Shown: in pieces, positions 2-59,022 of the stretch
Position numbering within the stretch: position 1 is the stretch's first letter
Layout: every line of letters begins with the position of its first letter
Assembly: GCA_003402705.1 (NCBI GenBank)
Contig: QQNF01000002.1
Location: forward strand, 1-64,000
Direction: 5' to 3'
Length of the DNA stretch: 64,000 nucleotides
DNA from: Verrucomicrobiota bacterium
GTDB taxonomy: Bacteria > Verrucomicrobiota > Verrucomicrobiia > Verrucomicrobiales > V1-33
Notes under the pieces: generated by a model
Database searches by the model: none
What the model was told of the DNA's origin: nothing
Seen by the model: the letters and a program-made list of their open reading frames with translations, nothing else
Program-made: the position numbers and the translations under genes

Positions 2-1708
2 ATCACCGACTTCGATCCGCTAAACGACATCATCGATCTATCAGCACCCTTCTGGGGCATGACCGGCGACGCCCGCGCCTACATCGCCGTCCGCCTCGAC
101 ACCAATTATTCGACCCCGGTCCCAACCCTCGACAGCGTGCTCGTCGTCACCCGCCCAGATGGCAGTAAACAGGAAATCGTCCTGCGCAAACTCGTCCTCG
201 GCAGCACCCAGCTCATCCGCCTCATCGCTGAAGGCAACATCCGCATGGGCGGCCTCAGCATCCCCACCACGGTGCAGCTCACCATGGCCCCCGGCTCGAC
301 CGGCGCGCCCATCAGCGAATCGCTCGACGAATCCTTCGCCCTCACCGTCACCCGCAGCGGTGCAGGCACCTCCGCCGCCCTCGACGTCCCGATCGGCTTC
401 TTCGAACAGGCCCTCGGCGGCCGCTTCCTCATCGAGGGAGCCACCTCCAACCAGGGCAAACGCTCGGTCGTCAGCTTCGCCCGCGGTCAGACGAGTAAAA
501 CCCTCACCGTCCGCCCCATCCCCGACCTCGAAACCACCGGCACGTCCAACATCGAAGTCGCCGTGCTGCCCCATTTCCGCTATGCGGTCGCTGGCGCGGG
601 TGTTTCACAAACCATCGGCGACAACCCGATGGTCTGGCTCGAAGTCATGCAGGAAAGCGCTGTCGCCAATCCTGCCCAACCCGCGAGTGTGCGAATCCAC
701 CGCAGCGGTAGCACTTCGCAAAACCTCACCGTAGATCTCCAACTCGACGGCACCGCAGAAAATGGCGTCCACATCCAGGAAGTCTCCAGCACCCTAACTA
801 TACCAGCCGGCCAAAGCAGCCGCGATCTAACTATCCCCGCACGCGCCGCCGGCCTCGCTGCCGGACCCAGGGTCGCCCTCATCCGCCTCGCCTCGCGCGA
901 ACAGTATATGTTAGGAAACCCCCACGAAGCCCTGATCTTCGTCGGCAATACCGCCGCGGAAACCCACGGTGCCGGGTTCGACCGCTGGCTCCACGCCTCC
1001 ACCAACGGCGTCATCTCCCGCCACGCCGATCTCCAGAAGCTGGCTCCGGGGAAAATGAGCAATTACGTGTTAGCCTACGCCTTTAGCCTCGCCTCCGTGG
1101 ACGATCTCGGCAAACACGGCATCTCATTCAATGTAGTCGCAGGCCGCCCGGAACTCAAAGCCCCGGGCCAATTCAAAGCCGCCGACCTCCGCTGGAGTGT
1201 GCAGTCCACCGCCACTCTCGGCGATTGGGAAAATGCGAACGGAAATTTCACGCGAGTCCCCGACCCCGCCGGGCTAAAACTCGTCGGTCAACCGCTCTCC
1301 GCCGCCGATAAGGGCAGATTCTACCGCCTCAACTTGACCCTCGACCCCGGTCAGCTCGTCGGCGACACCATCACTGCCACAACCGGCAGCCCCGACTACG
1401 GCATGACCGGCAACTGGAATGCCGATCCCGCCACCGGCCAACTCACAAGCTCCAGCGGCAACGCCGGCGAGACCAACCGCATCATCGCCAACATCACCGG
1501 TCCGGTGGACGTCGATTTTGAAATGGAAATCATCGGCGGAAATGGCAGCGACACGCTGGTGCTCTACATCGACGGCGTCAGGCAAACCACGACCCAGGGA
1601 CAATCCGTTAGTTATCGACAAGCTCTCACCGGCACCGCATCCCACCTCTTCATGTGGGAATTCACCCGCGGCTCCGGCAAGGCGGTCATCCGCAATCTGG
1701 CGCAATGA
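2..1708 (+). CDS. Large surface/secreted Calx-beta-like protein, C-terminal part (5' end outside window)
   Basis: The frame is open from the second base of the window, so the ATG at 59 is internal and the N-terminus lies to the left. The first residues (ITDFDPLNDIIDLS) resemble the end of a type I secretion target region as found in large repeat-containing exoproteins. Two stretches look like Calx-beta repeats: one around DESFALTVTRSG, the other from ASVRIHRSGSTS through GTAENGVHI to TIPAGQSSRDLTIPA. The last ~120 residues form another beta-rich segment ending FTRGSGKAVIRNLAQ. No catalytic motif is visible. It is probably an extracellular or outer-surface adhesin-like protein, but the function cannot be fixed from this fragment. 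The stop codon overlaps the next start (ATGA), suggesting co-transcription with the lipoprotein downstream. Codons end mostly in C, unlike the G-ending + strand genes to the right. Confidence 0.75.
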   Translation: MTDFDPLNDIIDLSAPFWGMTGDARAYIAVRLDTNYSTPVPTLDSVLVVTRPDGSKQEIVLRKLVLGSTQLIRLIAEGNIRMGGLSIPTTVQLTMAPGSTGAPISESLDESFALTVTRSGAGTSAALDVPIGFFEQALGGRFLIEGATSNQGKRSVVSFARGQTSKTLTVRPIPDLETTGTSNIEVAVLPHFRYAVAGAGVSQTIGDNPMVWLEVMQESAVANPAQPASVRIHRSGSTSQNLTVDLQLDGTAENGVHIQEVSSTLTIPAGQSSRDLTIPARAAGLAAGPRVALIRLASREQYMLGNPHEALIFVGNTAAETHGAGFDRWLHASTNGVISRHADLQKLAPGKMSNYVLAYAFSLASVDDLGKHGISFNVVAGRPELKAPGQFKAADLRWSVQSTATLGDWENANGNFTRVPDPAGLKLVGQPLSAADKGRFYRLNLTLDPGQLVGDTITATTGSPDYGMTGNWNADPATGQLTSSSGNAGETNRIIANITGPVDVDFEMEIIGGNGSDTLVLYIDGVRQTTTQGQSVSYRQALTGTASHLFMWEFTRGSGKAVIRNLAQ

Positions 1709-2622
1709 ACACCCGCACCCTGCGAGTTTTTCTCACCTTGATTGTCCCCGCTCTCGCCGCCTGCGGTCCGAAGACGAAGACGGAAACCAGGACCCCCGAA
1801 AAGCCCAGCGCGCTCGTAACCGTCGGCTCGATTTCCATCGACCAGCAGGACCTCGATCATCACCTCCAGGAAAAGCACGGCGGACGCAGCGACGAGCAAA
1901 CCCGCCGCATTGCCCTCGAAGAACTGACCCTCCGCGCCCAGCAAAACCAAGCCGCACTCGATGCGGATCTCGACAAGGACCCCGCCGTACGCGCCGAGAT
2001 GGCCCGCGTTCTCGCCACCCAATATCGGGAAAAACTCCTCGCTCCCCAACTCCGCGAACTCGCCAGCCAACCCATCACCGAAGCGCGCCTGCGCGAACTC
2101 TATCAGGAAAACGAACCCCGATTCCGCTCCAACGAAAAGCGCCAGATCGCCGTGCTTTGGCTCAATCCCAACAACGACGCCGAGCGCACCGCGCAATACC
2201 TCGAAAAACTCAACTACGCCCGCACGTGGGCCACCACCGCCGACCTCAAGGACCAACCCGGCCAGGGATTTTCCGTGCTCTCGGTCGATCACTCCGAGCA
2301 CCAGGCCAGCCGTTACAAAGGCGGCATCGTCGGCTGGCTCGAAAGCACCGGCAGCATGGACCAATGGACCAAAGCCGTCGCCGAGATCGCCTTCTCACTC
2401 ACCGAACCCGGCGAAGTCAGCCAAGTCATCTCCCGGCCCGAAGGCATGTTCCTGGTCCGCTACATGGACCGTAAACCGGCCATCCTCCGTCCGTTAGAGT
2501 CCGTGACCCGCGAACTCGAACAATCCGAAAAACAACGCTTGCGACAGGAACTCGAAGCTGGGTTTCGAAGAACCCTTGATGAAAAGTATCCTTCACAACG
2601 GACAAATCCGCCACAGCCCTAG
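1705..2622 (+). CDS. Parvulin-type peptidylprolyl isomerase lipoprotein (SurA/PpiC-like)
   Basis: The start at 1705 gives a lipoprotein signal peptide with lipobox LAAC at residues ~16-19 (MNTRTLRVFLTLIVPALAAC), so the mature protein is probably anchored in the outer or inner membrane facing the periplasm. After the anchor comes a SurA_N-like helical segment (ISIDQQDLDHHLQE, then the LYQENEPRF helix) and a parvulin-like domain (AVLWLNPNN ... GGIVGWLEST ... IAFSLTEPGEVSQVI ... GMFLVRYMDRKP). That order is typical of periplasmic folding factors for outer-membrane or exported proteins. The gene overlaps the preceding surface-protein gene by 4 bp, and the pairing suggests a dedicated folding factor for that exported protein (inference). 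Family assignment is good; isomerase activity is not certain because the parvulin domain looks divergent. Confidence 0.75.
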   Translation: MNTRTLRVFLTLIVPALAACGPKTKTETRTPEKPSALVTVGSISIDQQDLDHHLQEKHGGRSDEQTRRIALEELTLRAQQNQAALDADLDKDPAVRAEMARVLATQYREKLLAPQLRELASQPITEARLRELYQENEPRFRSNEKRQIAVLWLNPNNDAERTAQYLEKLNYARTWATTADLKDQPGQGFSVLSVDHSEHQASRYKGGIVGWLESTGSMDQWTKAVAEIAFSLTEPGEVSQVISRPEGMFLVRYMDRKPAILRPLESVTRELEQSEKQRLRQELEAGFRRTLDEKYPSQRTNPPQP

Positions 2623-2823
2623 GTCCGCGCATCACCCTCCCGGGCGATGGTCCACATGAAGCAACACCACGTCCACGACGCGATGGAAGATTCAATGTGT
2701 TCATGCTGTCGGATCGGACGAACAAGAATCCGCCGGAAATCCTCCGTAACCGCCGCCGCGGGTCCGAGTTTCCCGGCATCGAGAAGTCAAGGTTTTGGAG
2801 GGGACGTGTTGGGAGAAGGGGGG
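2623..2823. other. Intergenic segment at a GC-skew switch
   Basis: This 200-bp gap separates two + strand genes with C-ending codons from a convergent minus-strand gene, and marks where the + strand changes from C-rich to G-rich. No tRNA, terminator hairpin with U-tract, insertion-sequence end or convincing DnaA box (TTATCCACA-like) was seen. Its role is discussed as a finding. Confidence 0.5.
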
Positions 2824-3735
2824 TTATGGTGATGGTTGGAGTTTGAGGATGGCGGTGGCCATGGAGCGGCCGAGTTGGAGTTGGCCGGCGGTGTTGTAGT
2901 GGACGGTGTCGGGGAGGAGGGGGAAGTTGTCGGTGGGGATCATGCGGGTGCCGGGGATGGCGTCGGGATGGCCGGAGGCGGCGTCGGCGTGGGATTGGCT
3001 GGTGCGGATTTCGGAGCGGTGGGTGAAGCGCGGGAGAGGTGGGTCGTGGGGGAGGACCTGGCCGAAGACGAGGGGGACTGGGGTGTTCTGGTTGGTGTCT
3101 TGTTCGAGGCGGTGTTTGAGGAGCCGGAGGGAGGCGGCATAATTGGTGGCGGAAGTGGGGTGTTTTGCGTCCTGCTCGCCCTGCATCCAGAGGAAGCCGC
3201 GGATGGTGAAGGGGGTGTTCTGGTGGCGGAGGTGGTTGAGGGCGGCGAGGAACGTGCGGCGCATGGCGAGGTAGTGGAGGCCGGTGTTGGGGTCGGTGGG
3301 GGAGGTGCCTGGGTAGAAGGTTTTGCGGTTGGGGGCTGGGGGTAAATCCAGCCATGTGGTGCCGTCCCAGCCGGCGTGGAGAGGTTGGCCGCTGAGGGCG
3401 AATTTGACGATGAGGACATCGCGGTTGGGGGAGGCGGCGGTGATGGTGGAGGCGAAGCTGATTTCGGGGCCGAACTGGGTGGTGCCGGGGGAGCGGGTGC
3501 GGCCGGGGGTGAGTGGTTCGAAGGTGGAGCCGTTCCAGAATGAGGCGTTGGGGACGGGTTGGCGCTGCGGACCGGGGCGACCGGCGCCGGTGCCGGAGCC
3601 CTGCACGTTGGACTGACCGGCCACGACACAGAGGTCGGCGGGGCGCGGGGCGGGAGGGGCGGGGTCGGCGGCGCGGGAGAGTTGAGTGGAGATGAGGAGG
3701 GAGAGGAGCGGGAGGAGGAGGGAACGGCGGCGCAT
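2824..3735 (-). CDS. Secreted SASA-type carbohydrate esterase (sialate O-acetylesterase-like)
   Basis: The product begins with a clear Sec signal peptide (MRRRSLLLPLLSLLISTQLSRA) followed by SGNH/SASA family blocks. These are block I with the nucleophile serine in VVAGQSNVQGSG (~residues 37-48), the GFLWMQGEQDA block (~residues 157-167), and the C-terminal DTVHYNTAGQLQLG block carrying the catalytic His and probably the Asp. This matches the DUF303/CE6-like esterases that remove acetyl groups from sugars or hemicellulose. The ~303-residue length fits a single-domain member. It acts in the periplasm or outside the cell. It is a single minus-strand gene, divergent from the giant CotH/LamG gene. 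The exact substrate cannot be told. Confidence 0.85.
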   Translation of the reverse strand: MRRRSLLLPLLSLLISTQLSRAADPAPPAPRPADLCVVAGQSNVQGSGTGAGRPGPQRQPVPNASFWNGSTFEPLTPGRTRSPGTTQFGPEISFASTITAASPNRDVLIVKFALSGQPLHAGWDGTTWLDLPPAPNRKTFYPGTSPTDPNTGLHYLAMRRTFLAALNHLRHQNTPFTIRGFLWMQGEQDAKHPTSATNYAASLRLLKHRLEQDTNQNTPVPLVFGQVLPHDPPLPRFTHRSEIRTSQSHADAASGHPDAIPGTRMIPTDNFPLLPDTVHYNTAGQLQLGRSMATAILKLQPSP

Positions 3736-3884
3736 GAGAGGTGTGTGTGGCGGGAAGGGGGGAGGAAGGCAATGCCGCGAGTCCGTTTTGGGGGGCCGTG
3801 AAGCCGGGTGAATGAGATTGCCATGGAGGCCGGGAAGCGGGTAGATGGGAGGTTGTCGGTTTTCAACTTTCCTTTGTTTTGCCC

Positions 3885-6800
3885 ATGCAACTGCGCCTGT
3901 TTTCTGTAGGCCTCGCGTCCTTACTGCTGATGTCTGTGTCGGTGCGAGCCGGGCTGGTGGCGTACTGGCCGTTCAAAGATGCGGCGACGCTGGGGAATGA
4001 TCCGGCTGGCGGGACGGTGCTGACGTCGAACGGGGGAGCGGCGTACACGGCGTCTGGGAAGTTCGGGGGAGCGGTGACGCTGAACGGGACCTCGCAGTTT
4101 TTGTCAGGGACGGTGAACAACCTGCCGACGGGGAACAGTGCGTACACGCAGTCGGCGTGGATCAAGCCGACGTTGCTAGGGCCGCGGGGGATTGTGGGCT
4201 GGGGGAATTTCGGGGCGACGAGGCAGGTGAATGCGCTGCGGTTGTCTGACAGCGGGAACGGGTTCCGACATTACTGGACGGGAGCGGACCTAGATGCGAC
4301 GGGGCTGACGACGACCTTGAACAACGGGAGTTGGCATCATGTGGCGACGACGTGGGACGGCACGACGCGTCGGATTTTTCTGAACGGGGTGCCGGTGGCG
4401 CAGGACACGCCTGGGGCGAACGGGGCGACGGCGGCGAATTTCCGGATCGGGTCGACGAATGGTGGAGAGTTTTTCAGCGGGGCGATTGATGATGTGGCGT
4501 TGTACAATCATGCGCTGACGGCGACGGAGGTGCAGTTGCTGGCGAGCGGGGCGTCGCCGCTGCCGCCGCTGGCTCCGACGGGGTTGGCGGTGGATGATCT
4601 GACGATCCGGCCGGAGACGGTGACGGGGGATTTTCTGTCGACGATCATGAGTGCGGACCCTAACGAGGGTGAGGCGCACAGTTTCAGTCTGGTGAGTGGG
4701 CTGGGGAGCGAGGAGAACGGGAATTTTGCGATCGTCGGGCATCAATTGCGGGCGAACGCGGTGTTTGCGGGGCTGACGGGGGTGCCGCAGCGGATCCGGA
4801 TTCGGAGCACGGATGCGGCGGGGTTGTGGGTGGAGGCGTCTTTTGTGCTGATGGTGGTCCCGAAGACGCGGGGGATGGTGATCAATGAGATTCACTACAA
4901 CAGTGCGGACAACCGGGTGAGGAATTCGTTTGTGGAGCTGTACAACGACGGGGTGGCGGCGGTGGATTTGTCAGGGTGGAGGCTGAGCGGCGGGGTGGAC
5001 TATCTGATTCCTGGTGGGACGGTGGTGGCGGCGGGCGGGTATCTGGTGATCGCGGAGGATCCGGCGACGATGCAGAGTTATTTCGGGAAGACGGCGCTGG
5101 GGCCGTGGAACAATGCGGTGGTGGTGTACGCGGACGGGTCGAAGGAAGTGACGGGGTTGTCGAATGACGGGGACAACGTGAGGCTGCGGGATGCGGCCGG
5201 CAAGATTGTGAGTGAGGTGGATTACGAGAATCGGTCGCCGTGGCCTGCGGAGGGGAATGGCGAGGGGTCGTCGATCGAGCTGATTCATCCGATGCTGGAT
5301 GCGAGTCACGGGAGCAACTGGCGGGCGGCGAAGCTTGTGCCGCCGGCGGTGTTTACGACGTATGTTGGGTTTGGGGGGACGTGGCGGTGGCGTCGGGGGG
5401 TGCAGGGGGATACGGGTGAGCCGGCGGTACCGTTCACGGCGTGGCGGGCGCGTGTTTTTGTTGAGCCGGTGCCTGCGGCGGCGAATGCGCAGTGGCAGAG
5501 CAACGTGGCTCCGTTAGGGTTCGGGGACAATGACGGGAACGGGGCGAACGGGACGGCGGAGAATACGACGAACCTTGCGGACATGAATGGCGGGACGCTG
5601 TACACGTCGGTGTATTTGCGGCGGACGTTCACGATCGCGGCGGGGAAGATTCCGCAGGCGGTGCAGGTAAATGTGCGGTGTGATGATGGTTGTGTGGTGT
5701 GGATCAATGGGGTGTATGCGGGGGCGGTGCGGCCGAATGCGGCGATTGGGACGGGGCATCATTTCTATAACACGATGGCGACGAATGCGCCGGATCCGGT
5801 GGCGACTTTTGGGATGACGCCGGTGTCGGCGTCGGCGGTGAATCTGGTGGAGGGGGAGAATGTGATCGCGATTCACGCGATGAACACATCTGCGGCGAGC
5901 AATGATTTTCAGATTGATGCGGAGGTGAAGGAGGCGGCATTGACTGGGGATGCTGGGTCGCCGGGGGCGCGGAATTTCAAGTATGCGGAGGTGGCGGCGC
6001 CGGCGGTGCGGCGGGTGGGGCATTTGCCGGAGCGGCCTAAGTCATCGGACTCGATTGTGGTGACGGCGAGGATTACGGATCCGCAGGGGGTGGCGTCGGC
6101 GACGATGAGTTATCAGCTGGTGGCACCCGGGGCGTTTATTCCGGCGACGCTGCCGAAGGCGGTGAGCGGTGGGAATTTTGTGAATGTGACGGTGCCGCTG
6201 GCGGCGAATCCTGCGTTTGAGGATCCTGCGAACTGGGTGGTGGCGGCGATGCGGGATGACGGGACGCGAGGGGATGTGCTAGGCGGTGACGGGATCTGGA
6301 CTGGGGTGATTCCGCCGCAGGGGAACCGGACGCTGGTGCGGTACCGGGTGACGGCGGCGGACAACGGGGGCGCGTCGGCGCGGGTGCCGTATGCGGGGGA
6401 TCCGTCACTGAACTTTGCGTGTTTTGTTTATGACGGAGTGCCTGGGTACGAGGGGACGAGTGCGGCGGACCTGCAGAAGCTGCCGGTCTATCATTTTCTG
6501 ACGCGGAAGGCGGATTACGATCAATGTGTGGCGTACGACAACAATGCGTCGCAGCGGCTGACGGCGGGGACGAGCTGGAATTTCGAGAACTGGGAGGCGT
6601 GTTTTGTGTGTGACGGGGTGGTTTATGATCACATCCCGTATCGGTTGAAGGGGGCGAACGGGCGGTACACGGCGAGCGGGACGGGAGGTGCGGGGAATGG
6701 GAAGCGGGCGTTCAAGTTCCTCTTTCACAAAGGGTATGAGTTTGATGCGATCGATCAGAACGGGAATCGTTATCCTGAAAAGTGGTCGACGATGATCACG

Positions 6801-9107
6801 GAGAACCTGTGGGAGAACCGGGCGAGTTATACGTTTTCGCTGAATGAGATGGTGAATTTCCATCTGTTCAACGAGCTGGGGATTCCGGCGCCGCGTGGGC
6901 ACTGGTCGCATTTCCGGACGATCATGCAGACGGGGGAGCAGCCGACGAAGTGGGCGGGGGATTTCTGGGGGTTGATGTGGGTGCACGAGGATTACGACCG
7001 GCGGTTTCTGGCGGCGCACGGGTTGAAGAAGGGGAACCTTTACAAGCTGACGCGGGACGGGGTGAGCGGGCTGCTGCAGTTCCGTTATCAGTCGGCGTTC
7101 GGGCCGGCGGACGGGAGTGATCACGATGAGATCTACAACCAGTTGAAAGGGACGAGCACGCCGGCGTACATTCAGGCGCGGGTGAATCTGGATCTGTGGT
7201 GCCGCTATCATGGGTTTGCGGAAGCGATCCGGCATTACGATTACTGGCCGAACGGGGACAACAACGGGGCGTGGTATTTCTATCCGCTGTACAATGCGGC
7301 GAACAACAACAAGGGGCAGATGTACTATCTGCCGAACGATCTGGATGCGACGTGGGGGCCGACGTGGAACAACGGGCATGACATTGTGCACAACGCGCTA
7401 TTCAACGACAGTGCGAGCTCGGGCGGGGATGCGTCGACGAATCCGACGCTGTGGCCGCGGTATTTCAACCAGGTGAGGGAGATCCGGCGGCTGCTGTGGC
7501 AGCCTGATCAGATCAATCCGCTGATTGACGAGTTTGCGGCGGTGATCCGGCCGATTGTGAATGCGGAGTTCGTGCGTTGGCATCCGGGGAACGGGGCTCC
7601 GGCGGTGACGGGGAACTTCGGCGGATTGTTCGGGCCTAACGATTCGACACTGAATGCGAACGGGCAGCTGGCACTGAATGCGTATGTGGCGGGGATGAAG
7701 GATTTTGCGTTTGATGCGAACAACAATGGGGGGACGTGGCCTGGGGGGAATGTGGCCGTGGGCGGGCGGGCGGCGTTTCTGGACACGCTGGGGAGCAATC
7801 TTGGGGAGAATGCGACGAAGTATCCTGCGGTGCCGGTGATCAGTTACAGCGGGCCGGTGGGGTATCCGGTGAATGATCTACGGTTCACGACGACGGCGTT
7901 CAGCGATCCGAACGGGGATGCGTTTGCGGGGATGCAGTGGCGGGTGGCGGCGGTGAATGCGTCCGGGGTGTGGACGGCTGGGGAGCGGCGGCTGCTGGAG
8001 ATCAATGCGAGTCACGACAGCGGGGAACGGGGCGTGTTTGCGGCGGAGTACAAGTATCCGGTGACGGCGTGTGTGCCGGGGCAGCGGTACCGGGCGCGGG
8101 TTAGGATGAAGGATGCGACGGGGCGGTGGAGTTTGTGGAGCAATGCGTTGGAGTTTACGGCTGGGGTGTTTGATCCGTCGGCGTATGCGGGGCAGGTGGT
8201 GGTGAGCGAGCTGATGTATCATGCGGCGGATCCGACCCTTGCGGAGCGTGCGGCGGCGGCGGCGCTGAGTCCGGCGCAGGTGTGGAACGATGACAGTTTT
8301 GACTATGTGGAGCTGAGGAATGTGAGTGCCGGGGCGATTGACCTGACGGGGTTCGAGTTCACGTCGGGGTTTGACTATGTGTTTCCCGCGGGATCGGTGA
8401 TGGGTCCGGGAGCGAGTCTGGTGGTGGTGGCGAATGCGGATGCGTTCCGGGTGCGGTATGGAGCGGGGCGGCCGGTGGCGGGGGCGTGGAATGCGAAGGA
8501 CCGGCTGAGCAATGCGGGGGAGACCCTGACACTTCAGTTCGGGCAGGCGGTGCCTGCGGTGTTTTCGTTCGCGTACAGTGATAATGGTGGGGCGGGGTGG
8601 CCGGTGGAGCCTGATGGCAGCGGGGCGAGTCTGGTGAGGATCGAGCCTGAGAATCCGGCGCGTGATCCGGCGGTGGGGTGGAACTGGCGGGTGGGTGCGG
8701 TGCCGAGTCCGGGGGTGGACGACCGGGTTGGTTATGCGGCGTGGCTGGGCGGGGCGGCGGAGCCGGATGCGGACGGGGACGGGCTGGCGAATGTGGCGGA
8801 GTACATGCTAGGGGGGAGCAATGCGGGGGATTCGTCTGCGGTGGTGCCGGAGGGCGGGCTGGCGGCGGTGACGGTGGGCGGGGTGGAGGAGACTTACATG
8901 ACGCTGAGTGTGCGGCTGGTGAACGGGCGGGAGGATTTCCGGGTCCGGGCGGAGTTTTCAAGGAACCTTGCGGCGTGGCCGTTTGCAGGGGTGCAGATCG
9001 CGGCGAGGGACAATGGGGACGGGACGCGGACGGAGTTGTGGCGGAGTCCGGATCCGGTGATGCCGGGGAAGAGGCGGTTCGGGCGCGTGAGGTTCACGCC
9101 GCGGTGA
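3885..9107 (+). CDS. Giant exported LamG / lamin-tail / CotH-kinase protein
   Basis: I chose ATG 3885 rather than an in-frame TTG at 3879 because it gives a good signal peptide (MQLRLFSVGLASLLLMSVSVRA). The order is as follows. A LamG/concanavalin-like domain lies at ~residues 25-215 (GLVAYWPFKDA ... GSWHHVATTWDG ... DDVALYNHALT). A first lamin-tail domain starts near 330 (VINEIHYNS ... FVELYN ... LSGWRLSGG). A jelly-roll-like segment follows at ~510-690. A CotH-type kinase fold covers ~868-1230 (YHFLTRKADYD, IPYRLKGANGRY, KRAFKFLFHKGYEF, WGLMWVHEDYDRRF). A second lamin-tail domain lies near 1438-1560 (VVVSELMYHA). A calcium-loop-like DADGDGLANVAEYMLG sits near 1627. CotH proteins phosphorylate proteins in spores and exoproteomes; in Verrucomicrobia and Planctomycetes such proteins are surface or secreted with unknown targets. 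The gene is intact, about 1740 codons, and strongly G-ending. Confidence 0.85.
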   Translation: MQLRLFSVGLASLLLMSVSVRAGLVAYWPFKDAATLGNDPAGGTVLTSNGGAAYTASGKFGGAVTLNGTSQFLSGTVNNLPTGNSAYTQSAWIKPTLLGPRGIVGWGNFGATRQVNALRLSDSGNGFRHYWTGADLDATGLTTTLNNGSWHHVATTWDGTTRRIFLNGVPVAQDTPGANGATAANFRIGSTNGGEFFSGAIDDVALYNHALTATEVQLLASGASPLPPLAPTGLAVDDLTIRPETVTGDFLSTIMSADPNEGEAHSFSLVSGLGSEENGNFAIVGHQLRANAVFAGLTGVPQRIRIRSTDAAGLWVEASFVLMVVPKTRGMVINEIHYNSADNRVRNSFVELYNDGVAAVDLSGWRLSGGVDYLIPGGTVVAAGGYLVIAEDPATMQSYFGKTALGPWNNAVVVYADGSKEVTGLSNDGDNVRLRDAAGKIVSEVDYENRSPWPAEGNGEGSSIELIHPMLDASHGSNWRAAKLVPPAVFTTYVGFGGTWRWRRGVQGDTGEPAVPFTAWRARVFVEPVPAAANAQWQSNVAPLGFGDNDGNGANGTAENTTNLADMNGGTLYTSVYLRRTFTIAAGKIPQAVQVNVRCDDGCVVWINGVYAGAVRPNAAIGTGHHFYNTMATNAPDPVATFGMTPVSASAVNLVEGENVIAIHAMNTSAASNDFQIDAEVKEAALTGDAGSPGARNFKYAEVAAPAVRRVGHLPERPKSSDSIVVTARITDPQGVASATMSYQLVAPGAFIPATLPKAVSGGNFVNVTVPLAANPAFEDPANWVVAAMRDDGTRGDVLGGDGIWTGVIPPQGNRTLVRYRVTAADNGGASARVPYAGDPSLNFACFVYDGVPGYEGTSAADLQKLPVYHFLTRKADYDQCVAYDNNASQRLTAGTSWNFENWEACFVCDGVVYDHIPYRLKGANGRYTASGTGGAGNGKRAFKFLFHKGYEFDAIDQNGNRYPEKWSTMITENLWENRASYTFSLNEMVNFHLFNELGIPAPRGHWSHFRTIMQTGEQPTKWAGDFWGLMWVHEDYDRRFLAAHGLKKGNLYKLTRDGVSGLLQFRYQSAFGPADGSDHDEIYNQLKGTSTPAYIQARVNLDLWCRYHGFAEAIRHYDYWPNGDNNGAWYFYPLYNAANNNKGQMYYLPNDLDATWGPTWNNGHDIVHNALFNDSASSGGDASTNPTLWPRYFNQVREIRRLLWQPDQINPLIDEFAAVIRPIVNAEFVRWHPGNGAPAVTGNFGGLFGPNDSTLNANGQLALNAYVAGMKDFAFDANNNGGTWPGGNVAVGGRAAFLDTLGSNLGENATKYPAVPVISYSGPVGYPVNDLRFTTTAFSDPNGDAFAGMQWRVAAVNASGVWTAGERRLLEINASHDSGERGVFAAEYKYPVTACVPGQRYRARVRMKDATGRWSLWSNALEFTAGVFDPSAYAGQVVVSELMYHAADPTLAERAAAAALSPAQVWNDDSFDYVELRNVSAGAIDLTGFEFTSGFDYVFPAGSVMGPGASLVVVANADAFRVRYGAGRPVAGAWNAKDRLSNAGETLTLQFGQAVPAVFSFAYSDNGGAGWPVEPDGSGASLVRIEPENPARDPAVGWNWRVGAVPSPGVDDRVGYAAWLGGAAEPDADGDGLANVAEYMLGGSNAGDSSAVVPEGGLAAVTVGGVEETYMTLSVRLVNGREDFRVRAEFSRNLAAWPFAGVQIAARDNGDGTRTELWRSPDPVMPGKRRFGRVRFTPR

Positions 9108-14696: not shown

Positions 14697-15086
14697 TGAA
14701 ACAGGGAGAGAGGGCGGCAGGCCGAGTGCGTTGGAAGGGGCGAGTGTTTTCGGGCGGGATTTTGAGGGGGGGAACCCCTACGGGGTTCTGTGTTATTGTT
14801 TTTTGGGCCGGGGGTGCCGAGAGTGGCTCGCGGGACCCCCGGTTATTGATAGGTCGTCCCTACGGGACGCGAGGGTTGGCGGTGGTCGGGGTGGTCGGGG
14901 TGGTGAACCCAGAGCGGTGCTCTGGGCTGGTATGGGGCGTTCCTACAGAACGCGGGTGACGGCGGTGGTGGTGGACCCAGAGCGGTGCTCTGGGCTGGGA
15001 TGCGGTGTCCCGTTGGGACACGGGGCGGAGGTGAATGGTGCGAAGTGGAGGCGGGTCTTGGGGTGGGAGGTCGATTCAGGCCCGGT
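14697..15086. repeat. Array of short palindromes in gene-free DNA
   Basis: This stretch holds no credible gene. It contains two hairpin types. A CCCTACGGG-centred type gives perfect stems at 14772-14788 (GAACCCC-tac-GGGGTTC) and 14855-14869 (CGTCCC-tac-GGGACG), with related stems at 14937-14953 (GCGTTC-N5-GAACGC) and 15005-15021 (GTGTCCC-gtt-GGGACAC). The second type, ACCCAGAGCGGTGCTCTGGG followed by CTGG, occurs at 14907-14930 and again at 14975-14998. The regular alternation resembles REP/BIME-like nonautonomous repeats. Confidence 0.75.
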
Positions 15087-43046: not shown

Positions 43047-46000
43047 ATGTCTCTCCGCTTCCGGCTGTTGCCGCTTGTCCTTTCGCTGCCCATGGCTGCC
43101 AATGCTGTGGAAACCGACAGATCCGCTGGAAAGCGGACGCCGATTGAGCCGCCGACTCGGGTGTCTGCGGCGCTGCGTGCGAGGATGATGGCGCAGAACA
43201 ACACGGCGATTCCACAGGTTCCGGCTGAGGCTGGGGCAGCGGCACCGGCTGGGGATCCGGTGGAAGGGAGTGTGGAGGCGGCGAAGGCTGCAGCGATTCC
43301 GGCTGGGGCACCTACTGCGACGCCTGCGGCTGGGGCGGCGGCACCGGCGGCAGCGGTGGAAGATCCGGCGGCGAGCGGGCCTGTGCCGGGGGCAGCGCCG
43401 CGGCGGCCGACGATTGTGCTTCCGGGGGGAGCGCCGTCGACGAATGCGGGGGGTGCGGCGGCGGCTCCGGGAACTGGCAGTGGCCGTAGTGGCCGAAGAT
43501 TTGGGCCTCAGGGTGGAGCGGCGCCGACGGGTGCGGCGGTGCCAGCGGGAGCGGGTGCGGCGGTGCCTGGTGGGGCGACGGTTCCGGGAGCGGGTGCGGC
43601 GGCCCCTGGAGGGAGGACGACGCCTGGTGGGGCGACGGTGCCGGGTGCTGCGCCGCGGCGGACGGGCGGGCCTGGGGCGACGCCATTGCCGGGAGCTGGC
43701 GGTGCGCTGCCATCGGCGCTGGGAGATCCTGATGCGGTGGCAGCGGATGACGACAATCCGCTGGCGGAGATTGCGTTTGTGGATGCGCCGATCAACGATG
43801 TGATTTTCAAGTACGAAGAGATCACGGGGCGGCACGTCATCCGGGATGCGGGATTGCAGGGGACGGTATCGATCACGAAGAATCCATCGGTGCCGATGAC
43901 GGCGCAGGAGGCGGAGGATTTCATCAAGGCGTCACTGATGATTCAGGGATTTGTGATTCAGCCTTACAAGGGGAACATCGACAAGATCATTCAGCTGAAC
44001 AAGCCGCCGCTGATTGAGGGGCCGTCCAACGGCGCGCCGATCTACACGCGGGAGGAGGACCTTCCGGAGGAGGACATTCCGGTGAATTTTGTGATTATCC
44101 TGAAGTACCTGCCGGTCAACGAAGCCGCGCCGTTGATTGCGCAGGCGGCGCCGACGCACACGTGGACGAAGTATGTGGCGGTGGCTTCGGCGAATGCGAT
44201 TGTGGTGCAGGAGACGGTTTCTAACATTCGGACGGTTCTGCGGCTGATCAAAGGCATTGATCTGCCGCCGGTGAAGATGGTGCATGAGTGGGTGCCGCTG
44301 GAGCGTGCATCGGCGGAGGATGTGGAGCAGATTCTGTCGACGATTCTGCAGGCGCAGTCGCAGGGCAAAACGAGCGGTGGCGGGAGTGGGTTCCGGTCGG
44401 TGGCACCGGGGCAGGCGGCGGTGAATCTGGGTGGTGGCGCGGTGCCGGGCGGTGGCGGCGTGGTGATGCCTTCAGGTTCTGCGGGTTCTGCGGCGACGGG
44501 GATCATGCCTGACGGGAATTCCGTGATGGTGAAGTCGGATCCGCGGACGAACCGGGTGTTTGTGCACGGGCCGAAGGATCACGTGGATTATCTGAAGCTG
44601 CTGATCCGGGAGTTTGACGAGCCGAGCCGGGTGAAGAACCTGCTGACGCAGCAATTGCGTTATGTGCCGGTGAATGACTTTTTCCAGATTGCGGTGACGT
44701 CGCTGGAGACATCGGGAGCGGGTACGGCGGGGCAGGGTTCATCTGGTGGTGGCGGGGCGGCTGGTGGAGCGGGAGGGGCGTCGCGGACGGGCGGGCTTTC
44801 CGGTGGTGGCTCAACGAGCAACCGGAGTGGCGGCGGTCTGGGCGGCGGCGGATTCGGCGGCAATTCGGGTGGTGGATTGGGAGGCGGAGGATTTGGTGGC
44901 GGCGGTGGTGGGCTAGGTGGCGGTGGGCTTGGGGCCGGCGGCCGGACATCGGGCGGCGGCGGGCTTTCCGGGAGTGTGACGGAGCCACCGAAGGCGCAGG
45001 CGGTTGGCAAGACTCTGCTGATTTCCGATCCGCGGACGAACAGCCTGATTGTGTCAGGGCCGCCGGATTCGATTCAGCGCGTGTCGGAGCTGATTCAGGA
45101 GATGGACCGGCGTCCGCTGCAGGTGCACATCAACGCGGTGGTGGCGCAGGTGGGGATTGATGACAACATGCAGACGAGCGTCGATTATCTGCGGCGCGTT
45201 GAGGATCTGCAGATTTTCGGTCAGGATGTGAGTGCGGCTGGATTTTTCCGCAGCAGCGGCGGCAACAACTTCATCGATCCGGGGATTCTGGACACGATCT
45301 CGAATTTCCCGACTGGGGGATCCGGGCTGAACTTGTATGCGGCGTTCGGGGAACTGTTCAACGCTTACGTCAGAGTGCTGGAGACATCTGGGAAGGCGCG
45401 GCTGATGGCGAAGCCGCACGTGACGGTGGCGAACAACGAAGTGGCGAGCATTTCGAGTGGTGAGCGGGTGCCGATTCCGAGCAATCAGCAGTCGCAGATT
45501 GTGGCGGGCGGCACGACGTCGCTGAACAGCAGCATCGAGTATCAGAACGTGGTGCTGTCGCTGCAGGTGCAGCCACTGATCAACTCGAAGAACGAGATCA
45601 CGCTGAACATCAGCCAGCTGAACGACACGATCAACGGGAGCACGCAGATCAATGGGAACGACATTCCGAACATCTCGACGCAGGAGTTGAACACGCGGAT
45701 CACGGTGCCGAACGGCGGGATTCTGGTGCTGGGCGGGTTGATTTCCGATCAGGACCGGCGTTCTGCGAGCGGGTTGCCGGTGCTGAGCAAGATTCCGGTG
45801 ATCAAGTATCTTTTCGGGTCGAACAGCCGGGTGAAACAGCGGCGCGAGTTGCTGGTGATGCTGCAGGCGCGGATCATTGATTCGTCGGACGACATGGTGA
45901 ATGTGACAGCGTCGGAGACCCAGCGCACGGTGGTTGGGCCTGATGCGGAGCGGTTCCTCAAGCCGGACCGCGACACGAGCGAACTTTCGCTGCCGGCGTA

Positions 46001-46115
46001 TGAGCGTGATGTCCCATTTGATTCCGCCGGGTACCCACCGGGGACGGATCCGGTCCGGAAGAACATCTTCCAGCGGATCGGGGAACGCCTTCGCCGCCGC
46101 GATGGGACCCAGTGA
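43047..46115 (+). CDS. gspD: Type II secretion secretin GspD-like, with extra low-complexity regions
   Basis: Forms the outer-membrane channel of type II secretion. A signal peptide (MSLRFRLLPLVLSLPMAANA) is followed by ~200 residues of Ala/Pro/Gly low complexity. N-domains come next (IAFVDAPINDVIFKYEEITG, VPVNFVIILKYLPVNEAAPL - given as two pieces: FVIILKYLPVNEAAPL, SNIRTVLRLIKGIDLPP). A glycine-rich insert lies at ~residues 564-641. A further N-domain follows (LLISDPRTNSLIVSGPPDSI), then the conserved secretin domain (VPNGGILVLGGLISDQDRR, LSKIPVIKYLFGSNS, RRELLVMLQARII). The 1022-residue length is about 350 more than common GspD. The GGxG-loop insert is interesting and is treated as a finding. 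No pilotin gene was recognised. Confidence 0.9.
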   Translation: MSLRFRLLPLVLSLPMAANAVETDRSAGKRTPIEPPTRVSAALRARMMAQNNTAIPQVPAEAGAAAPAGDPVEGSVEAAKAAAIPAGAPTATPAAGAAAPAAAVEDPAASGPVPGAAPRRPTIVLPGGAPSTNAGGAAAAPGTGSGRSGRRFGPQGGAAPTGAAVPAGAGAAVPGGATVPGAGAAAPGGRTTPGGATVPGAAPRRTGGPGATPLPGAGGALPSALGDPDAVAADDDNPLAEIAFVDAPINDVIFKYEEITGRHVIRDAGLQGTVSITKNPSVPMTAQEAEDFIKASLMIQGFVIQPYKGNIDKIIQLNKPPLIEGPSNGAPIYTREEDLPEEDIPVNFVIILKYLPVNEAAPLIAQAAPTHTWTKYVAVASANAIVVQETVSNIRTVLRLIKGIDLPPVKMVHEWVPLERASAEDVEQILSTILQAQSQGKTSGGGSGFRSVAPGQAAVNLGGGAVPGGGGVVMPSGSAGSAATGIMPDGNSVMVKSDPRTNRVFVHGPKDHVDYLKLLIREFDEPSRVKNLLTQQLRYVPVNDFFQIAVTSLETSGAGTAGQGSSGGGGAAGGAGGASRTGGLSGGGSTSNRSGGGLGGGGFGGNSGGGLGGGGFGGGGGGLGGGGLGAGGRTSGGGGLSGSVTEPPKAQAVGKTLLISDPRTNSLIVSGPPDSIQRVSELIQEMDRRPLQVHINAVVAQVGIDDNMQTSVDYLRRVEDLQIFGQDVSAAGFFRSSGGNNFIDPGILDTISNFPTGGSGLNLYAAFGELFNAYVRVLETSGKARLMAKPHVTVANNEVASISSGERVPIPSNQQSQIVAGGTTSLNSSIEYQNVVLSLQVQPLINSKNEITLNISQLNDTINGSTQINGNDIPNISTQELNTRITVPNGGILVLGGLISDQDRRSASGLPVLSKIPVIKYLFGSNSRVKQRRELLVMLQARIIDSSDDMVNVTASETQRTVVGPDAERFLKPDRDTSELSLPAYERDVPFDSAGYPPGTDPVRKNIFQRIGERLRRRDGTQ

Positions 46116-46368
46116 ACGCGGAGCCGGCCGCCGGGTTCCCTAACGGGAAATTGGCGGTCCATCCGGCCCGGAAATCGGGTGCGGGAGGCAGGCCAGTCCA
46201 CCATGTTATCGAACACAACTCACTTACCTTCAACGAATTGCTGATCGTTAAAGCATTAATAAAGGCCCCGGTGAACTTTCTTCGAACTTTTTGCACGAAA
46301 TTCTTTACATCCCCCCATGCATCTTCTAATTTCTCATTAGCCCACGCAAAAATCCCACCTCACAACCC

Positions 46369-47370
46369 ATGAAAAACAAACTGTCCATCCTCATCGGCGC
46401 GATTTCCCTCGCTGCTGCAGCCGGAGCTTCGGCCCAGACCGCGGTCACTGACCCGGTGGGCTACATCACCGTGACTGTGAACGGCAGCGCCTCCGGCCTG
46501 TCCTTCATCGCTCCGACGCTCGTCAACAAGATTGAGTTCGCTGGTGCGACATCGACGACGACCGGCACGACGATCAACTTCAGCGGCACGCCGCTGACGG
46601 CTGGTGCTTACGGCCCTGGTTTCTATGTCGAAGTGTCGACCGGCGGCGTTCCGGGGGCTTGGTCTTCGATCGCTTCGAACACCGCCAACGCGATCACGAC
46701 CACGACTGACATCAGCAATGGTCTCGCCGCTGGTGCGACCGTCCGTATCCGCAAGCATGTCACTGTTGGTGATTTCTTCGGTGCGACGAACACGGCTGGC
46801 CTGAAGTCCGGTGGTGAAATTGGTGTCGCTGACGAAGTTCGGATCCTCGACGCTACGTCGAAGGCGATCAAGAAGGTCTTCTTCTATGACGACGGTTCGA
46901 CGACCGGTTGGTACGATGAAGACTTCAACGAGGCCCAGAATCTTGCGATTCCGCCTCAGCAGGGGATCTTCATTGTGCGCAAGCTTGCGACTCCGGTGTC
47001 CTTTGTGCGTGTTGGCAGCGTAAAGACCGGTCCGACCGCTCTTCCGGTCCAAACGGGCTTGAACATCATGGCAGTGACCCGCGCGGTGGGTGCTTCCTTC
47101 ACGCTCGGAAATTCCGCTCTGAAGACGCCGACTGGCGGTGTTCAGTCGGGTGCTGAAAGTGGTGCTGCTGACTCGATCCGAATTGCTCAACCAAACGGTT
47201 CTTTGAAGAACTACTTCCACTATGATGATGGTTCGACGGCCGGTTGGTACGACGAAGACTTCAACGAAGCGACTACCGTCCAACTCAAGGAAGGGACCGC
47301 CTTCATTCTCGTCCGCAAGCCGAACACTGGGTTTGTCTGGACCGTTCCTGCTGAACCAATTGCTCCTTGA
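46369..47370 (+). CDS. Exported TIGR02597-family protein
   Basis: The signal peptide (MKNKLSILIGAISLAAAAGASA) is followed by QTAVTDPVGYITVTVNG, the typical opening of the TIGR02597 family of Verrucomicrobia and related phyla. A repeated unit appears twice: VFFYDDGSTTGWYDEDFNEA (residues ~165-184) and YFHYDDGSTAGWYDEDFNEA (~284-303), each followed by FIVRK or FILVRK. Role unknown; the protein is likely abundant in the periplasm or at the surface. Codons are C/T-ending and balanced, unlike the G-ending neighbours, suggesting high expression. The 253-bp region upstream (46116-46368) is comparatively A/T-rich with a pyrimidine-rich leader and no clear ribosome site. Confidence 0.85.
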   Translation: MKNKLSILIGAISLAAAAGASAQTAVTDPVGYITVTVNGSASGLSFIAPTLVNKIEFAGATSTTTGTTINFSGTPLTAGAYGPGFYVEVSTGGVPGAWSSIASNTANAITTTTDISNGLAAGATVRIRKHVTVGDFFGATNTAGLKSGGEIGVADEVRILDATSKAIKKVFFYDDGSTTGWYDEDFNEAQNLAIPPQQGIFIVRKLATPVSFVRVGSVKTGPTALPVQTGLNIMAVTRAVGASFTLGNSALKTPTGGVQSGAESGAADSIRIAQPNGSLKNYFHYDDGSTAGWYDEDFNEATTVQLKEGTAFILVRKPNTGFVWTVPAEPIAP

Positions 47371-47409
47371 CATTCCTCCAGGATTCATCAAAAACACTCC
47401 TATTATCCT

Positions 47410-48012
47410 ATGAAGAAACTCATCCTTCTTGCAGCTGCTCTGCTGCCTCTCGCTGCACAAGCTTCGACAGTGTCGCTTTCCACGTCCCGGACTGGTGCTG
47501 GTCTGTTCCTCTCTGGTGGAACCACGCTTGCTGGTACTGGCAGTCTGATCCGCGTCGGTTCGATCTCAAACCTTGCTGATCCGATTGGTACATTCGTGGA
47601 ATTCGGTGCAGGTTCGACCCGCACGATCATCTCGACGACCTCGAAGATCACGGGTTCGGTGTCCTCGGCCCTGCCTGAAGCCAACCACACTCAGTTCAAC
47701 GGCAGGACGATCTACATCTGGGCGTACAACGCCCCTACCGCTGGGGCGGCGACCCAACAGGCGATCTTTACGTCGACGAAGGCGTTCCCGGTGAACGATG
47801 TGTCCGGCGTGGGTGACGACGTTACGGTCTTCTCTGCCACGGAACTCACTGGTGTGGTTACGATCCCGGGCTGGAATCCAGGTCAGATCCTCGCGGGTTC
47901 TGGTGATCACACCCCTAGGTTTGTCCTCGGTACGGTGGTGCCTGAGCCAACCACGACGACCTTCTCTGGTCTGGCTGCTTTGGCTTTCATTGCCCGCCGC
48001 AAGCGCGCTTGA
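47410..48012 (+). CDS. PEP-CTERM-type exported protein
   Basis: The 200-residue product has a signal peptide (MKKLILLAAALLPLAAQA) and ends with a PEP-CTERM sorting signal: VVPEPTTTTFSGLAALAFIARRKRA (broken: VVPEPTTTTFSG, LAALAFIARRKRA), meaning PEP motif, short hydrophobic helix and basic tail. PEP-CTERM proteins are usually processed by exosortase and exported with exopolysaccharide; no exosortase gene is in this window. The central beta-rich part contains LIRVGSISNLADPIGTFVEF and YIWAYNAPTAGAATQQAIF, shared with the paralogue at 49174-49812. It follows the TIGR02597 gene by 39 bp and shares its codon style. It ends in a strong terminator. Confidence 0.85.
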   Translation: MKKLILLAAALLPLAAQASTVSLSTSRTGAGLFLSGGTTLAGTGSLIRVGSISNLADPIGTFVEFGAGSTRTIISTTSKITGSVSSALPEANHTQFNGRTIYIWAYNAPTAGAATQQAIFTSTKAFPVNDVSGVGDDVTVFSATELTGVVTIPGWNPGQILAGSGDHTPRFVLGTVVPEPTTTTFSGLAALAFIARRKRA

Positions 48013-56994: not shown

Positions 56995-59022
56995 CTACAG
57001 CAGGAGGGAGTGGCGGATTTTGCCGAGGGGGGAGCGTGGGAGGAGGGAGTTGGCGCGGATTTCGAGGATGGCGGCGAATGGTGGGAGGGCGGCGTTGGCG
57101 GCGGCGGTCCATGCGCGGGCTTCGGTTTCCGAGGCCTCGGTGAAGAGGATGAGGGAAGCGCCGCGGCGGGGGTGAGGGGAGGCGATGACGGCGCCGGCGG
57201 CTGGGGGCATGCCTGCGAGTGCGAGGGCGGATTCGATGGCGTCGAGGTTGACGAGTTCGCCGAGGATTTTGACGGTGCGGTCGGCGCGGCCGGAGAAGGA
57301 GAGCGAGCGGCCGTCGAGTTTGGCGCGGTCGTTGGTGAGGAACCAGCCGTCGGGGTCGAGCGGTGAGGAGAGCTGCCATGAGCCGTCTGGGGAGAGCTGG
57401 AGGAAGCCTGAGAGGAGGGGGGTGCCGCGGATGGCGAGACGGCCGTCTGGGGCGATGCGGGCGTCCCAGCAGGGGAGGAGAACGAGTTGGCAGGGGTGGG
57501 CGGCGGGTTTGGCGGTGGCGATCTGGGAGGAGGCTTCGGTCATGCCGTAGGTGGCGAGGATGGGCCAGCCGAGGTTGGCGGCGGCGGCGGCGAGCGAGGG
57601 AGGGAGTGCGCCGCCGCCGATGAGGATGGCGCGGAGAGAGGAAGGGGCGCGGCAGCCTTCGGTGGTGAGGTCGTGGAGCTGGGCGGGGACGAGGGATGAT
57701 AGTGTGGCGGAGGAGTCGGAGACGAGCGCGGTGAAGTCGTGGGGGTTCCAGCGGGCGGGCATGGGGACGACCGGTGATTTGGAGAGGAAGGCGCGGGCGT
57801 GGATGCTCATGCCGCCGACGTGGAACGAGGGGAGCGGGCAGAGCCAGAGATCGTCAGGGGAGGCGAGGAGCCATGCATTGACGGCGGCGGCGTTGGCGAG
57901 GAAGGCGTGGCGGGAGAGACAGACGATGGATGGGGTGGAGCTGGTGGATCCGGAGGTGGCGAAGGCGAGGTGGCCGTGGGGGATGGCGTTGGGGGGCGGG
58001 GCTGGGTTGAGCGGGGCGCGTGGGTTGGAGAGGAGGATGCCGGGAGCGTCTGGGTTGGAGAAGTCGGTGGGTGAATGGGAGGGTGGAGAGGGGAGAGGGG
58101 AGGAGCGTTCGAGACGCTGCCATGGGAGGTTGGCGAGGAGGAGGTCGAAGCCGAGGCCGGTGCCGGGAGGTGCTAGGAGCTGCGGGCCGTTAGAGTGGAT
58201 GGCTTCGAGGAAGGCGTCGGGTTCGAAGAGGTGGTGGGTGAGGAGACCGGCATCGAGTTGGGGGAGAGGCCAGCGGGCGGCTTCGGCGGCGGCCCATGCC
58301 TGGCCGACGGGGTGGTCCATGTAGGAAGTGAAGACGACTGGTTCGGGGCGGAGGGTCCATGCGGCCGGGTTGTCGAGGGCTGGTTTGAGGACCCTGACAT
58401 CGAAGCCGGAGGTAGCGGAGGAATTGTCAGGGAGCCGGTCGAGGGCGAGGCGGAAGGCGGTGAGTTGCTTGAGCTGGGACCATGAGGCGGGGTCCCATGG
58501 GAGGGGGTCTTCGAGGAAGTCGATGGCGTGGGCCCATGGGGCGAGGGCGAGCCATGCGGGGATGGTGCCGGTGTTGTTGGCGTCGATTCTGATGCTGAGG
58601 CCGGCGGCTGAGGCGCGGGCGAGTTTGTCAGGGAGGGAAGGGTCGTCGGAGGAGGCTTTGAGTTTGACGGAGGAGAAGCCTGCGGCGGCGAGGGCTGGGA
58701 AGTCGGCGTCGTGAGTGACGGTGGCGTGGCTTTTCGGGATGGAGAGGTTGAGGAAGAGCGAGTGGTTGGCGCGGCGGGCGGCGGCGTCGGCGGAGAGGCA
58801 GGCGAAGGTGCGTGCGATGAGCGGGGAGGAACGGCCGCGGCGGAGGAGGGAGAGTTGTTCGTCGAGCGGGGCGTCGCCGAGTTCGGGCCATGGCTGGAGA
58901 CAGGCGAAGCCGCCGTCGCGGAGGAGGAGGATGCCTTCGAGGGAGGTGCGGGAACTGCGGCGGTTAGGGCCTGCTGGGGAGCGGAGGTGGAGTGAGTAGT
59001 GGTGGATCCAGAGCGGTTGCAT
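56995..59022 (-). CDS. menC-menE: Fused o-succinylbenzoate synthase (MenC) and o-succinylbenzoate-CoA ligase (MenE)
   Basis: Catalyses two consecutive steps of menaquinone synthesis: dehydration of SHCHC to o-succinylbenzoate, then its CoA activation. Residues ~1-300 are an enolase-superfamily MenC with the expected residues: Lys120-x-Lys122 (SSVKLKAS), Asp148 (RIDANNTG), Glu171 (IDFLEDPLP), Asp195 (LALDRLP) and Lys213 (VLKPALDN). Residues ~350-675 are an ANL-type acyl-CoA synthetase: phosphate loop TSGSTSSTPSIVCLSRHAF (356-374), ATYGMTEASSQIA (490-502), FLTNDRAKLDG and SFSGRADRTVKILGELVN. The C-terminal SPLGKIRHSLL holds the adenylation Lys. The ANL half is shortish (~330 residues versus ~450). 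No other men gene is near. Both halves look intact. Confidence 0.88.
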   Translation of the reverse strand: MQPLWIHHYSLHLRSPAGPNRRSSRTSLEGILLLRDGGFACLQPWPELGDAPLDEQLSLLRRGRSSPLIARTFACLSADAAARRANHSLFLNLSIPKSHATVTHDADFPALAAAGFSSVKLKASSDDPSLPDKLARASAAGLSIRIDANNTGTIPAWLALAPWAHAIDFLEDPLPWDPASWSQLKQLTAFRLALDRLPDNSSATSGFDVRVLKPALDNPAAWTLRPEPVVFTSYMDHPVGQAWAAAEAARWPLPQLDAGLLTHHLFEPDAFLEAIHSNGPQLLAPPGTGLGFDLLLANLPWQRLERSSPLPSPPSHSPTDFSNPDAPGILLSNPRAPLNPAPPPNAIPHGHLAFATSGSTSSTPSIVCLSRHAFLANAAAVNAWLLASPDDLWLCPLPSFHVGGMSIHARAFLSKSPVVPMPARWNPHDFTALVSDSSATLSSLVPAQLHDLTTEGCRAPSSLRAILIGGGALPPSLAAAAANLGWPILATYGMTEASSQIATAKPAAHPCQLVLLPCWDARIAPDGRLAIRGTPLLSGFLQLSPDGSWQLSSPLDPDGWFLTNDRAKLDGRSLSFSGRADRTVKILGELVNLDAIESALALAGMPPAAGAVIASPHPRRGASLILFTEASETEARAWTAAANAALPPFAAILEIRANSLLPRSPLGKIRHSLLL

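Follow-up and report, generated by a model that had tools for sequence, protein, structure and literature searches.

A strand-composition switch near the start of a Verrucomicrobiota contig is the seam of two DNA pieces evolved on opposite replication strands

The mnmG (gidA) gene is often found at bacterial origins of replication. Its position near the origin has been described in E. coli (PMC4446571). GC skew has in addition been used as a check of assemblies (SkewIT, PMC7717575; Chen et al., 2020, PMC7111523), and the misassembly or inversion cases described in this way concern closed genomes, in which the inverted segments are long and often bounded by inverted repeats. The junction described here is in itself an ordinary one. 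It is located near position 2,760 of the sequence under study and joins two DNA pieces whose evolution took place on opposite replication strands.

The window is the first 64 kb of contig C2 (G000:C2, 166,583 bases), window base 1 being contig base 1. The genome, G000, is a MAG of 4.08 Mb in 128 contigs and 75% complete, and its genome-wide skew comparisons rest on 1.39 Mb of the 4.08 Mb. As nothing of the contig precedes the window, the odd segment reaches the contig end. The features needed for the analysis are the following.

2..1708, plus strand: large protein gene, C-terminal part (~568 codons), from open reading frame and tblastn; the N-terminal part is cut by the contig start
1705..2622, plus strand: PpiC-type peptidyl-prolyl isomerase gene (Pfam PF13145, E 3.6e-11), a conserved neighbour of the large protein gene
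2623..2823, no strand: spacer between convergent genes, with the change point of the skew at 2751-2797 and congener homology ending at 2806
2824..3735, minus strand: SASA-family carbohydrate esterase gene (Pfam PF03629, E 1.6e-26), first gene of the native G-rich-strand segment
3891..9107, plus strand: Lamin-tail / LamG / CotH-domain surface protein gene (Pfam), in the native segment
37026..38420, minus strand: dnaA (Pfam PF00308, E 1.2e-69), syntenic with G001

Elsewhere in the window, a single 675-aa frame on the minus strand (56995-59022) carries an O-succinylbenzoate synthase N-terminal domain and an AMP-binding domain and, judging from these domains, resembles a MenC-MenE fusion of the menaquinone pathway.

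When measured in 200-base steps, GC skew was from -0.08 to -0.33 all through positions 1-2800 and from +0.23 to +0.61 all through 2801-6000. The best two-segment change point (one change point, 12 kb) was found at 2780, with 2751-2797 within 3 lnL units and a lnL gain of 254; the abrupt composition switch placed at ~2.7 kb by the preliminary description is thus real. The local cumulative GC skew minimum is at 2757, and the contig start is only 2.8 kb to the left of the switch. Contig C2 has a skew of about -0.2 over 1-2757 and of +0.3 to +0.45 over most of the remaining 166.6 kb contig, and the overall jump, from about -0.2 to about +0.4, falls inside the spacer of two convergent genes. The third positions of codons, in genes on either strand, carry the switch: the two plus-strand genes to the left of the junction have a GC skew of -0.61 and -0.45 at these positions. 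To the right, it is +0.47 to +0.83 in plus-strand genes and -0.67 to -0.80, on their own strand, in minus-strand genes. These values match what had been said earlier about codon endings on both strands.

Most G000 contigs keep one skew sign, at ~0.3-0.4 (1.39 Mb), near-zero stretches and some gradual changes also being present. The junction is the sole spot in the 1.39 Mb sampled at which 2.7 kb below -0.15 abut 2.7 kb above +0.3, no second abrupt reversal of comparable size was found in that sample, and C2 alone has an end of opposite sign among 40 contig starts of G000. Near-zero skew was seen in the window at 45000-48000, a block of lower G+C (0.575) that starts near the end of the secretin gene (43047-46115), and at G000:C1:59000-69000 and 79000-153000, blocks lying within strongly skewed contigs; some near-zero blocks are sharp-edged. 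They are possibly acquired or differently constrained DNA. The pattern at G000:C3:50000-97000, where within 50 kb a negative skew slowly turns positive and then negative again, does not resemble that of an origin or of a fresh inversion.

The switch runs from C-rich to G-rich and is sharp, as would be correct for a replication origin at ~2.7 kb. The "origin-like direction" noted previously therefore stands as a description. However, an origin at this position is very improbable. The same genes in G003:C401 and G001:C300, from two congeners, are not accompanied by a skew switch, skew being positive to the left of the esterase gene. In addition, DnaA boxes (TTATNCACA, at most one mismatch) do not form a cluster: there are 11 in 64 kb against 11.7 expected, with none in 1.7-5.6 kb. 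Neither origin-linked genes nor parS were found within a few kb of 2.7 kb, and C2 has no parS within two mismatches. It is contig C1 that carries mnmG, two exact parS-like sites and a skew minimum of larger scale. The cumulative skew of C1 reaches its minimum at 152,998, the skew being -0.31 in the first 79 kb, -0.12 from there to 152.5 kb and +0.34 past 153 kb, and mnmG (C1:164,731-166,623) is 12 kb from this minimum. The two sites, at mnmG, are exact copies of TGTTCCACGTGGAACA, which we take to be a parS-type palindrome, at C1:165,848 and 166,713; nothing else in 1.39 Mb matches with up to two mismatches, and the expected number of exact matches is 0.0002. The same arrangement is present in G051, a complete genome of another family, which has two TGTTCCACGTGGAACA palindromes in the same positions with respect to mnmG (L204:486-2466) and whose skew passes from negative to positive 20-40 kb from mnmG and the palindromes, on the corresponding side. 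The TGTTCCACGTGGAACA sites at mnmG, whose position is conserved in two families of the order, are likely origin-proximal parS. All these results indicate that the origin of this genome is most likely on C1, at ~153 kb, beside mnmG and the two parS-like sites, and that the switch at 2.7 kb is almost certainly not an origin.

The distance of 35 kb to dnaA had been mentioned before as an argument about the origin. In two complete genomes of the order, G051 (dnaA at 5.086 Mb) and G034 (dnaA at 0.4 kb), the gene is placed within a single-sign skew arm and, as a consequence, distance from dnaA is uninformative in this order and the argument has to be dropped. In the window, skew stays at +0.3 to +0.4 on both sides of dnaA, which is far from any skew switch. 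Two other candidates were considered. A DnaA-box cluster of G051 at 5.112 Mb was dismissed as an origin, as three of its four boxes are inside one open frame and no skew sign change is found there, and parB was rejected as an origin marker, being on C7 and unlinked to the parS-like sites. The analysis thereby removes a false origin call and indicates a likely origin site (C1 ~153 kb) in a group where dnaA is no origin marker.

Comparison with the congeners revealed that homology to the window begins at 2806 (G003:C401) and 2811 (G001:C300) and runs rightwards at 92-96% DNA identity. The esterase gene shares 92% DNA identity with both contigs, and the surface protein gene at 3891..9107 shares 92-96% in G001 and G003. 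The synteny break (2806/2811) accompanies the skew break (2751-2797), both falling in the same base range, and the piece to the left has a composition of lagging-strand type. To the left of the esterase gene, G001 and G003 have other genes, with the plus strand still G-rich save for a dip at a repeat-rich spot; in G003 the skew there is +0.29 to +0.44 over most of 5.6 kb. This congener flank encodes a 320-aa protein, beyond which, to the left, come a large ORF and a polysaccharide-deacetylase-like gene, the last two names coming from sequence inspection and not from a family search.

None of the three congeners has the left piece (1-2.76 kb), formed by the end of the large protein gene and the PpiC gene, and the PpiC gene has only 28% matches in them. 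The gene pair is adjacent in G271, G077, G160, G279, G019, G023 and others and is scattered across Verrucomicrobiales, with nothing above ~35% similarity in its own family. The best matches, of 58-63% identity for the large protein (tblastn), are in genomes of another family, f2, and homologues of this protein have an open frame of ~1,050-1,260 aa. The N-terminal part of the gene was not found elsewhere in G000, and a Pfam search with the large protein gave no match. The absence from three congeners and the best matches in another family of the order would both be expected if the pair had been gained recently from another Verrucomicrobiales lineage and inserted here. Such a recent horizontal gain is nevertheless improbable, as the homologues are without the C and A excess that is so strong in the left piece, so that a fresh insert from them would look different, and the composition of the piece is native-like. 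When turned to the C-rich strand, it is typical of G000 (Markov likelihood at the 28th-45th percentile, tetranucleotide correlation at the 26th percentile), and a foreign origin on the basis of composition was rejected for this reason. Third-position AT skew of its genes is +0.14 and +0.33. Both genes surpass every listed homologue in third-position C and A excess, in the same direction, which argues that they evolved in a strongly skewed genome, on its C-rich strand. Read plainly, the left piece was for long on the C-rich strand of such a genome and was recently moved here, or was moved only in the assembly. A long-ago transfer followed by a later move is compatible with the evidence and belongs with a rearrangement.

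We give an even chance to the positions ~2760-2806 being the boundary of a recent chromosomal rearrangement. The DNA to the right of them, from the esterase gene onward, would be native to the G-rich strand, and the left piece would have evolved on the C-rich strand and then been placed beside the esterase gene, most likely by inversion or inverted transposition into an intergenic spot that also varies among the congeners. The strand switch would then be a relic of the former location of the left piece and not the mark of an origin. We infer that the join arose in the cell and not in the assembler, and that inversion was the mechanism. A join made in the cell is favoured by the intact flanking genes (PpiC and esterase), the intergenic position, the native composition and the lack of a repeat at the seam. 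Neither an uninverted copy of the left piece nor a second breakpoint was found in the three congeners, and the contig ends first.

The evidence against a rearrangement in the cell is that the join is 2.8 kb from the end of a MAG contig and that no second join in 1.39 Mb breaks the sign, the other rearranged joins keeping it. The alternative is that the assembler attached to the end of C2 a fragment that belongs elsewhere in the genome or to a closely related strain of the sample, which we regard as a serious possibility of rather less than even probability. The contig-end position, 2.8 kb from base 1 of C2, the unique break of sign, which is the only such flip among the 40 contig starts, and the missing native flank favour this explanation: the G000 assembly lacks the gene (G003:C401:4310-5272) that both congeners have to the left of the esterase gene. 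Moreover, skew breaks are a published signal of misassembly (PMC7717575, PMC7111523), and in the congeners a dispersed hairpin-forming repeat of ~130 bases, of a type that breaks assemblies, is within 50 bases of the junction spot. However, no repeat sequence is left at the seam, the composition of the left piece fits G000, and both genes end cleanly at an intergenic seam. A recent inversion boundary and an assembly join, proposed as alternatives in the preliminary description, are exactly the two readings left.

No repeat shared by the joined pieces was detected at the seam, the spacer occurring only once in the assembly (resolved to repeats of at least ~25 bases). Searches in the genome, the congeners, 142 genomes of the order, plasmids and viral contigs gave no good match to it and a single weak peptide match (E 0.009), so that the spacer was rejected as a dispersed repeat or conserved element. 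A tblastx match to G051 at 200 kb (47% over 34 residues) did not receive support from the wider search. No RNA family was found above threshold at the junction.

The ~130-base hairpin-like repeat is present in tens of copies in G000 and G001 (for example at window 14763-14869 and, in the other congener, at G003:C401:5305-5438), and it sits at or near several synteny breaks. G001 and G003 agree in having the deacetylase block to the left of the esterase gene; on the G003 contig, G001:C359 ends where G001:C300 begins, and between the same blocks G001 has ~3 kb more than G003. In G000 this block is found 127 kb farther right, at C2 129,253-132,713. What adjoins C2:132.8 kb on the left is different in each of the three genomes (G000, G001 and G003), at a repeat, and therefore rearrangement, or assembly breakage, at dispersed repeats is common in the genus. 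Other rearranged joins in the genus keep the strand sign.

Absolute GC skew of ~0.3-0.45, at ~64% G+C, extends over most contigs in the window, G000 C1-C40, G001, G003, G010 and G011, and near-zero skew was found in G002, of the same genus, and in G004 and G005, of the same family. Loss of uracil-DNA glycosylase was rejected as a cause of the strong skew, as the enzyme is present in all 15 genomes tested. A skew of ~0.4 common to two congeners and absent from the third could mean that an extreme strand-specific mutation bias arose within one genus, a proposal to which we attach middling confidence. If true, this rise of strand bias at genus level can be studied by comparing near relatives and, with strong skew in three of four congeners, its cause could become testable. 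In a genome so strongly skewed, a single wrong-sign stretch of 2.7 kb suffices to point to a recent rearrangement or to an assembly join.

Finally, this locus can be compared with the two kinds of known system. It resembles a chromosomal origin, defined by a skew minimum together with mnmG/gidA and parS, in the direction and sharpness of the skew change, but it does not have conserved origin genes, DnaA boxes or parS and is not conserved in the congeners. With the skew cases attributed to misassembly or inversion (PMC7717575, PMC7111523) it shares an abrupt change of sign inside a replichore at a synteny break. Unlike in those cases, only 2.8 kb of the odd side are visible here, the join carries no repeat and the moved piece is absent from the relatives.
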